64,000 bases of DNA, taken from NCBI GenBank assembly GCA_029979505.1, contig JAPOHH010000004.1, forward strand, positions 19,850-83,849. Reading direction: 5' to 3'. This DNA is from a bacterium (GTDB taxonomy: Bacteria > Pseudomonadota > Gammaproteobacteria > GCA-002705445 > GCA-002716945). The notes below the pieces were generated by a model. The model saw only the letters and a list, made by a program, of their open reading frames with translations. It made no database searches and was not told the DNA's origin. Of the stretch, positions 17,964 through 36,391 are shown piece by piece. Made by a program: the position numbers and the translations under genes. Position 1 is the stretch's first letter. Each line of letters opens with the position of its first letter.

Positions 17964-18188
17964 TCATTTATTTAACTTCTCTTCTAATTCTTCCAATTTT
18001 TTTCGTGTTTTAAGGAGAACCTCTTTTTGGATATCAAATTCCTCTCGTGTCACTACTTCGATTCTTCTGAGATAATCGTTTAAAAGAATTTTAAGATTAT
18101 CCTTCAGGTCATCTTTTACAGCCTCTGCATTTTTGGGAATTATACTAAGGATACCATCAACCAATTCTTTAAATTTATTATTTTTCAT
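17964..18188 (-). CDS. ubiK: Ubiquinone biosynthesis accessory factor UbiK (BMFP family, YqiC)
   Basis: MKNNKFKELVDGILSIIPKNAEAVKDDLKDNLKILLNDYLRRIEVVTREEFDIQKEVLLKTRKKLEELEEKL; typical VTREEFDxQ and coiled-coil C-terminus. Confidence 0.85.
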   Translation of the reverse strand: MKNNKFKELVDGILSIIPKNAEAVKDDLKDNLKILLNDYLRRIEVVTREEFDIQKEVLLKTRKKLEELEEKLNK

Positions 18189-18190
18189 TT

Positions 18191-18220
18191 TGCACTCCTT
18201 TGATGCACATTTTTTGTGCA
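18191..18220. promoter_or_regulatory. Two overlapping NtrC-type enhancer palindromes
   Basis: TGCACTCCTTTGATGCA (18191-18207) and TGCACATTTTTTGTGCA (18204-18220), both 17-mers of the TGCAC-N7-GTGCA form. Confidence 0.75.
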
Positions 18221-18354
18221 AGATTTAGATCCTATACTCATTATAAAGAAATTTACGAATGTTTACTTTACTACTTGTATTATTAATATATCATACACCC
18301 AATATTATTAGGGAAACACTCATATTTTTATATGTAAATAATAATATTAACAGT

Positions 18355-22847: not shown

Positions 22848-24547
22848 TACATTCTATCCATTGGTTTTATATCCAGCACTTCGAGACCGCTGATTATAAT
22901 TTTATCTACACATTTTATTAGGGTAACTTTTTCACCTTTCGTAGAAGATGCAATGATTTTAGTCTCTGCATAGTATGAGTGAAATGTCTGAGCAACTTTA
23001 TATAAATAGTTTGTTATTATGTCTGGCCTTATCATATTTATAGCTTTATCCATTGTATTCTGAAAACTATTGATTAATTCGATAAGCTCAATTTCATTTT
23101 TCGTATTTAAGTTATCAAGATTGTCCTTTTCAACAGAAGCATTATCCAAATCATTAATAATTTTTGTAATCCTAGCATGAGCATATTGAATGTAATAAAT
23201 TGGATTATTTTTATTTTTTTTGATTGCAAGATCTACGTCAAATTCTAAATGCTGCTCCTTCTTTTTTGTTAAATAAAAGTATTTCGTAGCATCAGGTCCA
23301 ATTTCATTAACTAAATCTTGTATTGGATAAAAATCACCACTTCTCGTAGACATTGAGATAGACTTGCCAGACATAATAAGATTAGCAAATTGTACCAGAT
23401 GTATTTGCAATCTATTTTCTACATCATATTCCAATGCTTTCATGGCGTTTGTAAGTCTTACTGCGTAATCATGGTGATCAGCTCCCCAGATATTTATAAG
23501 AATGTCATGATTTTCAAACTTGTGAACATGGTAGGCAATATCAGTTGCAAAGTATGTCATATCACCATTACTTTTAATGAGAACCCTGTCTTTGTCCTCA
23601 CCAAAAGACGTATTTCTAAACCATAAAGCTCCATCCATTGTATAGCTTAAATTACTATCATCTATTTTTTTTAGGACAGTCTTTAATAAGCCCGATTCAT
23701 ATAAATCACTTTCATTAAACCAACTATCAAAATTAATATTAACCGAAGATAAATCTTTTTTAATATAGTTTTCTATAATCTCATTAACTAATGACTTTCT
23801 TATCTTTAAGTAACTATCGATACTTTTGATATAAGTAATTAATTCATCTATCGGATTATCTAATAAAGATAAAACTTTCTCTTTATCAATATTTTCAAGA
23901 TTATTTTTTATTAATTTTGATACGTCATTAACATATGAGCCCTTATATGTTACTAATCGACCTTCAGAGTCATCTCTTTCATCACTAAAAATATGATCTT
24001 TCTTTCCAAGGTGGCATAAGATAGTACTTATTAATAATAAATCTATTTGTCTTCCAGCATCATTGACATAATATTGGCGAGTAACATTATGTCCTATTAA
24101 TGACATAAACCTAGCTGTGGTATCACCCACAATCATGCCCCTTCCATGCCCAATATGCAATGGTCCTGTTGGATTAGCTGAGACATACTCGACATGAATA
24201 TTTTTTCTATTTTTCACCTTATCGAAAATTAAATTATTTTTAATTATTCTATTGAGTTCTTGAAATTTATTTGATTTTGTAATGAAGAAGTTTATATATC
24301 CAGGAGAGGCTATGTCGATTTTTTCAACATCAATAATATTTTCTAAATGATTAACTATTTCTTTTGCTATGAGCATTGGATTCTTTTTAAGAATCTTTGC
24401 CAGCCTCATAGCTATATTTGTGTAAAGGTCACCATGGGAACTATCAGTAGTTTTATTAACTTCAATATTTATCTTGTTAATATCATTATAAGATTCATAA
24501 AGCTTTTTTAGAGCTTTATTTATTTCAATAATTATATGTTCTTTCAT
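22847..24547 (-). CDS. argS: Arginyl-tRNA synthetase
   Basis: VEYVSANPTGPLHIGHGRG, class I HIGH; anticodon-binding C-terminus. Confidence 0.95.
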   Translation of the reverse strand: MKEHIIIEINKALKKLYESYNDINKINIEVNKTTDSSHGDLYTNIAMRLAKILKKNPMLIAKEIVNHLENIIDVEKIDIASPGYINFFITKSNKFQELNRIIKNNLIFDKVKNRKNIHVEYVSANPTGPLHIGHGRGMIVGDTTARFMSLIGHNVTRQYYVNDAGRQIDLLLISTILCHLGKKDHIFSDERDDSEGRLVTYKGSYVNDVSKLIKNNLENIDKEKVLSLLDNPIDELITYIKSIDSYLKIRKSLVNEIIENYIKKDLSSVNINFDSWFNESDLYESGLLKTVLKKIDDSNLSYTMDGALWFRNTSFGEDKDRVLIKSNGDMTYFATDIAYHVHKFENHDILINIWGADHHDYAVRLTNAMKALEYDVENRLQIHLVQFANLIMSGKSISMSTRSGDFYPIQDLVNEIGPDATKYFYLTKKKEQHLEFDVDLAIKKNKNNPIYYIQYAHARITKIINDLDNASVEKDNLDNLNTKNEIELIELINSFQNTMDKAINMIRPDIITNYLYKVAQTFHSYYAETKIIASSTKGEKVTLIKCVDKIIISGLEVLDIKPMDRM

Positions 24548-26508
24548 TATTGTGTCGGATCAATATCGATATACCATTTAATTTTACTATCTATGCTGGC
24601 TAAGTATAACTTAATTCTAGTTATATGTTCCGATAAAAGCTTGTGACTTTTTGATCCAACTATTATTTGATAGGAATATGTATTATTTTTTTTGAATGTT
24701 TCAGCTGGAGAAGGCCCATAAACAAATACAGATTTATTTTTTTTAAATTTCACTATTTCTGCAAGTAGCGACTTAGGCTTAAATCTATTGGCAGCTGATA
24801 TATTTATTATTCCTATATGACTATAGGGTGGCAGATTAACGCTTTCACGTTCTTTAAGAGCAACTTTGCTGAATTCTTCGTATCCCTCTTTAAGAATCTT
24901 TAATAATAAACTATGCTTGGGATTGTTAGTTTGAATGATTACATTTCCTTGTGATTTTTGTCTACCTGCTCTTCCAGAAACTTGTGTAATTAACTGTCCT
25001 GTCTTTTCTAGTCCCCTAAAGTCTGTGCTATATAATCCAGCATCAATATTAATTATTCCAACGAGTGATATATTTGGAAAATCATGTCCTTTAACAATCA
25101 TTTGTGTTCCTACGAAGATATCAATTTTATTATTAGTAGCACTTTCAATAAAACTTGTTAAGTCCTTCTTAGATGAAATATTGTCACTATCTATTCTTAA
25201 TACCCTTTTATTTGGAAATAATTCTTTTACTTTATTTTCTAATCTCTGTGTACCAACACCTAGAGGTACTAAAGATGGGTTTTCACAACAAGTTTTAACA
25301 GATTCAAAATTCTGACTAAATTCGCATTGATGACATATTAGCCTTTCAACATTTTTATGATATGTCATGATAGTATTGCATTTTGGACATTTAACAATAG
25401 TTTTACATTCACTACAAAGCACTGTATTACTAAAACCTCTTCTACCAATAAAAAGTATTATTTTCTTGTTTTTACCTAATTCAGATTTCATTTTATCCTT
25501 AAGAGTTTTTGATAAACCTTCATCTGGTTTATCGACAGAGGTATCAACAATTGTAATTAATGGCATTTTTGATTTATGAAATCGATTAAGTAATTTATAT
25601 TGCTTATATTTTTTTATATTAATATTATGAAGGGACTCAAAAGATGGGGTAGCACTTCCAAGAATAACAGGACAGTTAAAATTTTTAGCTCTAACAATAC
25701 TTATGTCCCTAGCATTGTATTTAAATTTTTCATTTTGTTTATATGATTGATCATGTTCTTCATCAACGACAATCAGTTTTAAATTTTTAAATGGTAAGAA
25801 AACTGCTGATCTCGTTCCAATAACTACTAGCTTTTCTTCCTCTCTACATGCTTGGCAAACTCTAAACTTTTGTGTTGGTGTCAAGTGTGAATGATATTCA
25901 ATCGGCTTTGTTGTCATATATTTTTGAAACCTTGCTACAGTCTGGGGGGTTAGATTAATTTCAGGAACTAATATTAGAACTTGAGCATTTTCTTCAAGTA
26001 AAGATGAAGTAAGATATGTGTAAATTTCTGTTTTGCCTGAACCTGTTACTCCCTGAATATAGTTAACTTGATATTTGTTGATATTTTTATTAATACTTTT
26101 TGCAACTTTGAACTGCTCATCATTAAGGACTAAACTGTCTGGTTTTAATATTTCACTATGTTCATATTTACTCTTCGGCTCAGGTTTGTTTTTTCGTTTT
26201 ATGGGCGTTAAAGCACTAAATAGAACTTGACCTAGGGGATAATGGTAGTAATTTGAAGCCCATCTTGAAGTTTTTAGCAACTCCGATGACAGTGTTGGTG
26301 TATGATCAAGTAGTTCTTGGATATCTTTAATTTCATAGGAGCCTTTTCTATCTACATTATCAAAAAACTTAACAATGATACCTATTCTAATTGACCTGCC
26401 AAACGGAACGACTACTCTTGAACCTACTTTGGCATTGACATGGGTGCATCTATAGTCAAATAGTTTGTTAACTGGGACATCTAATGCTACAGATACAAAT
26501 TTATACAT
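24547..26508 (-). CDS. priA: Primosomal protein N' (replication restart helicase)
   Basis: GVTGSGKTEIYTYL, DEEHDQSYKQ, Zn-binding CSECKTIVKCPKCNTIMTYHK...CHQCE. Confidence 0.95.
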   Translation of the reverse strand: MYKFVSVALDVPVNKLFDYRCTHVNAKVGSRVVVPFGRSIRIGIIVKFFDNVDRKGSYEIKDIQELLDHTPTLSSELLKTSRWASNYYHYPLGQVLFSALTPIKRKNKPEPKSKYEHSEILKPDSLVLNDEQFKVAKSINKNINKYQVNYIQGVTGSGKTEIYTYLTSSLLEENAQVLILVPEINLTPQTVARFQKYMTTKPIEYHSHLTPTQKFRVCQACREEEKLVVIGTRSAVFLPFKNLKLIVVDEEHDQSYKQNEKFKYNARDISIVRAKNFNCPVILGSATPSFESLHNINIKKYKQYKLLNRFHKSKMPLITIVDTSVDKPDEGLSKTLKDKMKSELGKNKKIILFIGRRGFSNTVLCSECKTIVKCPKCNTIMTYHKNVERLICHQCEFSQNFESVKTCCENPSLVPLGVGTQRLENKVKELFPNKRVLRIDSDNISSKKDLTSFIESATNNKIDIFVGTQMIVKGHDFPNISLVGIINIDAGLYSTDFRGLEKTGQLITQVSGRAGRQKSQGNVIIQTNNPKHSLLLKILKEGYEEFSKVALKERESVNLPPYSHIGIINISAANRFKPKSLLAEIVKFKKNKSVFVYGPSPAETFKKNNTYSYQIIVGSKSHKLLSEHITRIKLYLASIDSKIKWYIDIDPTQ

Positions 26509-26515
26509 ATCGAGT

Positions 26516-26521
26516 AGTATA
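26516..26521 (-). promoter_or_regulatory. Candidate -10 element of priA
   Basis: TATACT on the minus strand, 7 nt upstream of the priA ATG; -35 not convincing. Confidence 0.4.
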
Positions 26522-26561
26522 AACTATGTTTAACAGGGCTTTTATCATTATAAGAAGTGAG

Positions 26562-26597
26562 TTTATCCACAGAATCTGTGGATAAATCTGTGGACAA
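26562..26597. promoter_or_regulatory. DnaA-box cluster (candidate oriC element)
   Basis: TTATCCACA (26563-26571), inverted TGTGGATAA (26577-26585), and TGTGGACAA (26589-26597, one mismatch). Confidence 0.6.
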
Positions 26598-26867
26598 ATC
26601 TCATTTAAAATGAAAATCCCTAAACGTAATACTGCTCCCCTCAAATTGTTCAATTTATAGTCAAATTAATATTCCTATATATATCAATAATATATAAAGT
26701 AAATAATTAGTTTGATTTATATAAATGATTATAAACATATGATTATAGTTATCGTTATACTGTCAGCTTACACTGTTAATAAATGCTCTATAATGGGGCT
26801 ATTTATAGTTAAATTTAACATTCGTCTATGTATATCACATGATGTATTCTTGTAATATTAGATAAAT

Positions 26868-27452
26868 ATGGATATTACTAAACAAATTCTTAGATTAAAT
26901 TATGCTGGATTGCCAATTGGATGGGTTTCCTATCAAACTGCAGTTAGGCTGTATTGTAATAATCAAGTCACTTATGAATGTGGTAATAGTTCACTGCTTA
27001 TAAGAGGAGGCTCCAGTAGGATATCTGGGGCACAAAGTACTATTCTTATAAATTCCATTGTTGCAACAAAGAACTACAATAAAATTTCATATTCTGATTA
27101 TATACCTCCATTAACTAATACTACTCTTTTTAAGAGAGATGCATCAACTTGCTTATATTGTGGAGAATCCTTTTCACTTAAAAGTTTATCTAGAGATCAT
27201 ATTGTACCCTTATCTAAAGGGGGACAAGATAGCTGGATGAATACTGTTACTGCATGTAAAAGATGTAATAATCATAAAGCTAATAAGACTTTGGATCAGT
27301 CTGGAATGGCCTTACTTGCAGTTCCTTTTGTACCCTCAAGAATAGAATATTTAATCCTCAGAGGAAGAACAATTCTGGCAGACCAGATGGAATTTTTATT
27401 GTCACATGTACCTAAATCTAGTTTAATACGCAAAAGGTATACACAAGGGTGA
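26868..27452 (+). CDS. HNH endonuclease domain protein
   Basis: CLYCGESFSLKSLSRDHIVPLSKGGQDSWMNTVTACKRCNNHKANKT (C-x2-C, DH, N, C-x2-C). Confidence 0.88.
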   Translation: MDITKQILRLNYAGLPIGWVSYQTAVRLYCNNQVTYECGNSSLLIRGGSSRISGAQSTILINSIVATKNYNKISYSDYIPPLTNTTLFKRDASTCLYCGESFSLKSLSRDHIVPLSKGGQDSWMNTVTACKRCNNHKANKTLDQSGMALLAVPFVPSRIEYLILRGRTILADQMEFLLSHVPKSSLIRKRYTQG

Positions 27453-36055: not shown

Positions 36056-36391
36056 ATGAGTATGTCTGAATTATCACCAAAGAATGCAAAGTTTAGCCTC
36101 GGTCAAATCGTATACCACTCTAAATTCAAGTATCGTGGTGTTATAGTTGATGCAGACCCAAATTTTCAAGGCACTGATGAATGGTATGATTCTGTAGCTA
36201 AATCTAAGCCTGATAAAAACAAACCATGGTACCATGTTCTTGTCCATGGCCAGGGAAACGAGACATATGTTGCGGAGTCTAATCTAACAACAGATCAGAA
36301 TAATGACCCTGTTGATCATCCCTTTGTAGACATATTCTTCTATGAATACGATAACAGTGGGCAATATTCACTAAAACAAACATTCAACTAA
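36056..36391 (+). CDS. hspQ: Heat shock protein HspQ
   Basis: KFSLGQIVYHSKFKYRGVIVDADPNFQGTDEWYD, PWYHVLVHG, TYVAESNL. Confidence 0.93.
   Translation: MSMSELSPKNAKFSLGQIVYHSKFKYRGVIVDADPNFQGTDEWYDSVAKSKPDKNKPWYHVLVHGQGNETYVAESNLTTDQNNDPVDHPFVDIFFYEYDNSGQYSLKQTFN

Follow-up and report, generated by a model that had tools for sequence, protein, structure and literature searches.

The window analysed here (the whole stretch of 64,000 nucleotides) belongs to a gammaproteobacterial assembly of 917 kb in 15 contigs, probably from SAR86 in view of its size, AT content and a marine ammonium-transporter subtype, and the locus under study is a gap of 359 nt (26509-26867) between priA and a gene with an HNH_5 endonuclease domain. 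A preliminary description of this DNA had given the gap as the longest intergenic one in the window, which holds among ORFs of at least 80 aa; the runner-up is shortened by a small ORF (17964-18221) that is a real BMFP-family gene. Three DnaA boxes stand at the priA end of the gap. The features of the locus are as follows, with offsets counted, here and below, from the start of box I:

24547-26508, minus strand: priA (primosomal protein N'; PF17764, PF18074, TIGR00595)
26563-26571, plus strand: DnaA box I, TTATCCACA, the exact consensus, in the position of box I of E. coli DARS1/DARS2
26577-26585, minus strand: DnaA box II, TGTGGATAA (TTATCCACA on the minus strand), facing box I head-to-head across a 5-nt gap
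26589-26597, minus strand: DnaA box III, TGTGGACAA (TTGTCCACA on the minus strand), 3 nt from box II
26642-26664, no strand assigned: block between core and IHF motif, conserved in the alignment of 22 sequences of the order
26682-26694, plus strand: IHF-like site TATCAATAATATA at +119, one mismatch to WATCAANNNNTTR
26774-26782, minus strand: fourth DnaA box, TTATTAACA on the minus strand, at +211
26868-27452, plus strand: HNH_5 endonuclease-domain gene (PF14279), flanking the element opposite priA

Boxes I and II lie in an inverted repeat whose 12-nt arms (26562-26573 and 26575-26586) are 100% complementary around a 1-nt centre, slightly better than the 11-bp repeat with two boxes first proposed, and the 12-nt step from the start of the second box to that of the third agrees with the spacing given before. 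Box III runs in the direction of box II and has one mismatch to TTATNCACA; most relatives in the order carry TTATNCACA or TTTTCCACA at this position. With up to two mismatches allowed, the three-box pattern has a single match in the window, against none in 100 dinucleotide shuffles. The cluster is real and strongly conserved, and the earlier claim of a DnaA-binding regulatory locus is well supported. The boxes adjoin AT-rich DNA, in which both copies of ATGATTATA and the TATATA tracts of the preliminary description were found; the fourth conserved box and the IHF-like motif were absent from that description. The conserved block overlaps what may be a second IHF-like motif (26659-26671), which has two mismatches in the window; at +96, several relatives have an IHF match with one mismatch or none. 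Directly past the fourth box, and still within the gap, there is a terminator-like hairpin with a weak stem (26785-26799). Elsewhere in the window (36056-36391) lies a gene for a YccV/HspQ-like hemimethylated-DNA-binding protein.

The E. coli DnaA-reactivating sequences (DARS), DARS1 and DARS2, whose founding paper is reportedly Fujimitsu 2009, served for comparison with the locus. The box offsets 0 (+), 14 (-) and 26 (-) are identical in the window and in both E. coli elements, whose common feature has been described as three boxes spaced alike in the two elements, with box I reversed relative to II and III (PMC5742627). ADP release has been proposed to follow when DnaA molecules on boxes I and II touch head-to-head (PMC8682772). 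The core of DARS1 (bioD-uvrB) reads TTATCCACT-N5-TGTGGATAA-N3-TGTGTATTA and that of the window TTATCCACA-N5-TGTGGATAA-N3-TGTGGACAA, the two being almost identical in boxes I and II, whereas DARS1 has neither an IHF motif nor a consensus distal box at the window's offsets. DARS2, located upstream of mutH where the window has priA, combines a core of the same spacing (TTATTCACC-N5-TGTGGATAG-N3-TGTGAAGAA) with a plus-strand IHF motif downstream and a further DnaA box at +211. This distal box, however, has the opposite direction to that of the window, and the IHF motifs of DARS2 stand at +93 (-) and +109 (+), the window's +119 being about one helical turn further out. Fis sites (FBS2-3) are a further feature of the DARS2 type. 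Species proximal to E. coli are reported to conserve the layout of DARS2 (PMC4245941, PMC8682772), and its conservation has also been given as beta- or gamma-proteobacterial (PMC5742627). The E. coli DARS2 region (L251:1952-1974) holds a second head-to-head pair, TTATCCCAG-N5-TGTGGATAA, 316 nt from box I of DARS2. A scan of the E. coli priA-rpmE gap gave no DARS core. Our literature search found no report of a DARS beside priA or in distant Gammaproteobacteria, an earlier notice of wide conservation being possible, and no activity measurement for any DARS member outside E. coli.

The preliminary description had proposed to check whether relatives conserve the box cluster, and the outcome was positive. 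Among 25 genomes of the order, two of which were left unscored as they had no assembled priA, the full core (at most two mismatches over the three boxes) lies upstream of priA in 22, and in the 23rd (G016) the inverted pair stands 67 nt from the PriA N-terminal match, which brings the count to 23 of the 23 genomes with an assembled priA start. The exact inverted pair TTATCCACA-N5-TGTGGATAA occurs in 12 of the 25 genomes, once in each, and its reversed control in none. The alignment of 22 order sequences shows divergent AT-rich surroundings in which three parts are kept: the IHF-like motif, the fourth DnaA box and the block at 26642-26664. The fourth box is inverted; its offset is +200/201 in the order, but +211, one helical turn longer, within the genus of the window. 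In the relatives G014 (1.09 Mb) and G017 (880 kb) the core is the only cluster of at least three listed boxes. A PriA search of the genome contigs returned three close relatives, the other matches being to distant bacteria. In one genome (G002:C1:107024-108972) priA is broken into two matches, an in-frame stop interrupting the first, through assembly error or decay.

The same core is widespread in the class: 110 of 369 gammaproteobacterial genomes and 89 of 273 genera carry a match, and the reversed control gave none. Across a sample of the phylum, counted by hand, it was present in 22 of 89 genomes of the same class and in 6 of 160 of other classes, these six (G403, G412, G425, G439, G451 and G476) falling into three families only; the matches include sites spelled as E. 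coli-type cores of DARS1 and of DARS2, which serve as a positive control for a pattern applied blindly. One of the six, G425, carries two overlapping cores on opposite strands. When inverted TTATCCACA pairs were searched in the class with any gap of 0-25 nt, the gap was 5 nt in 70 of the 75 pairs among the matches listed (hand count), and two further pairs were the box I/III pairs of a core. PriA lies on the left in 22 of the 70 class loci read and always reads away from the core; three of these 22 belong to the window's order and 19 do not. Among the latter, 14 of 19 have an IHF motif in a single 4-nt bin near +119 (mean per bin, 0.27) and 18 of 19 the inverted fourth box at +201 to +207. In seven class loci (L283, L295, L297, L320, L325, L337 and L338) the core adjoins a HemW-like radical-SAM gene, assigned by eye from translations, which makes it a second recurrent neighbour.

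The preliminary description had put forward an oriC displaced from dnaA, where the boxes would recruit ATP-DnaA and the AT-rich stretch would unwind, a reading that we now consider improbable. Like the oriC of E. coli, the site has DnaA boxes, AT-rich DNA and an IHF motif; the contigs read show no other compact cluster of DnaA boxes, near dnaA or elsewhere, and the distance of the site to dnaA (123-128 kb) is conserved in three relatives. It differs from E. coli oriC in box arrangement and in chromosome position, DnaA being set head-to-head as in DARS and not in the head-to-tail arrays of oriC (PMC5742627). Skew was analysed in the relatives G014, G017 and G003, read in stretches. The claim on position comes mainly from one genome, G014 (99% complete, contigs of 781 and 310 kb), which was read almost whole, with its contigs joined in number order (an assumed order) and one small contig left out. 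Its cumulative GC skew has a minimum at 52.2 kb and a maximum at 596.7 kb; dnaA is located at 52.8-54.1 kb, and the priA-linked core at 181.4 kb, 129 kb from the minimum. A dif-like 28-mer (G014:C1:599462) lies at most 3 kb from the skew maximum, and the two arms leading to it measure 546 and 545 kb from dnaA versus 418 and 673 kb from the priA site, so that in G014 the core is neither at the skew minimum nor opposite dif. A third-position skew fit with separate gene-strand and replication-strand terms places the origin at about 30-70 kb, 180 kb being worse by about 47 units. G017 has a near-identical dif-like 28-mer (G017:C4:359197), likewise within 3 kb of its raw skew maximum at 357.6 kb; its strand-corrected skew was uninformative and its origin region was read non-contiguously, and in G003, of the window's own genus, the skew is weak and favours neither origin. 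The order dnaA-dnaN is the usual one, beside a divergent series of yidC-mnmE-mnmG size (judged by ORF size and order only). In the dnaA-dnaN gap of G000 (C6:1908-1940, L122), a TTATCCACA and a TTATTAACA box lie 24 bp apart; the pair recurs in relatives at a spacing of 24 or 34-35 bp, and may be part of the real oriC. The most likely arrangement, for which G014 is the main witness, is thus an oriC at dnaA, about 125 kb from a core that is not the replication origin of the chromosome, and the AT-rich stretch is better read as the spacer of a DARS IHF site than as an unwinding element.

About as improbable as the displaced origin, and ranked by us just below it, is a DnaA-regulated promoter of priA or of the HNH gene, which would couple the capacity for replication restart to the state of DnaA. 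Box I is 54 nt from the priA start codon, and the 22 priA-linked loci of the class all show the gene beside the core in the same orientation. The distance from the core to the priA ORF varies, on the other hand, from about 15 to 174 nt, whereas the core-IHF-box distances are nearly fixed; the IHF motif falls in the same bin near +119 in 36 of the 48 cores without PriA as a detected neighbour (mean 0.82), and promoter matches in the gap are at background (7 versus 4.9 in shuffles, sd 2.6). Control of priA, also raised in the preliminary description, may occur as a side effect, but cannot alone explain the geometry, because the three-part layout recurs at cores away from the gene; it appears to be the element and not priA regulation that is under selection, because the layout is fixed regardless of the neighbour. 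The least credible alternative is a site of the datA kind, which would either titrate DnaA or stimulate hydrolysis of its ATP. In its favour, DnaA boxes lie on both sides of the IHF motif, and there is one such site, some 125 kb away from the predicted origin. Against it, the essential datA boxes are all co-directional (PMC5742627), boxes II, III and the fourth face against box I in the window, and E. coli datA holds no DARS core, its best match having 6 mismatches against 1 in the window.

The core geometry, its conservation, the fixed offsets of the IHF motif and the fourth box, and the partner genes are best explained by a DARS, and we consider it probable that the element is one, converting ADP-DnaA to ATP-DnaA. 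Three boxes with box I opposed to II and III at DARS1/DARS2 spacing, an intergenic position, lying in G014 away from the predicted oriC, and, as in DARS2, an IHF site at a set distance (+119 here, +109 in E. coli) are all present. Against this reading, the accessory part differs from that of DARS2, DARS1 has no IHF motif at all, and the window's box III and IHF motif have one mismatch each. Hda makes ADP-DnaA in E. coli, and a reactivation route would be expected for this reason. In the proposed scheme, every biochemical step of which is carried over from E. coli DARS1/DARS2, Hda would produce ADP-DnaA after initiation, and ADP-DnaA would then bind boxes I-III. The head-to-head boxes I and II would make two AAA+ domains of DnaA face each other, loosening ADP, and an IHF bend at +119 would carry the distal DnaA box, and perhaps also a Fis-like protein, near the core, thereby stimulating release. 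The apo-DnaA would depart, rebind ATP and be ready to fire oriC elsewhere. As for the partners, the genome encodes IHF-alpha, with a score above the NCBIfam cut-off, together with IHF-beta-like, Hda-like and Fis-like (87 aa) proteins whose scores lie below the NCBIfam equivalog cut-offs, a further point against the DARS reading.

Beyond the single locus, we see evenly balanced chances that DARS is an ancestral gammaproteobacterial device, made of the core, an IHF site at about +119 and an inverted box at about +203 and commonly placed beside priA, from which DARS1 and DARS2 of E. coli are derived, and of which streamlined marine bacteria such as the present one use a single copy to run their DnaA cycle. 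A compact DnaA-box cluster of this kind can be mistaken for oriC, and the core geometry would give a simple sequence handle for finding DARS. If bacteria of about 1 Mb indeed carry only one core, and about one third of the sampled Gammaproteobacteria share its geometry, DnaA reactivation would be a general feature of the class.
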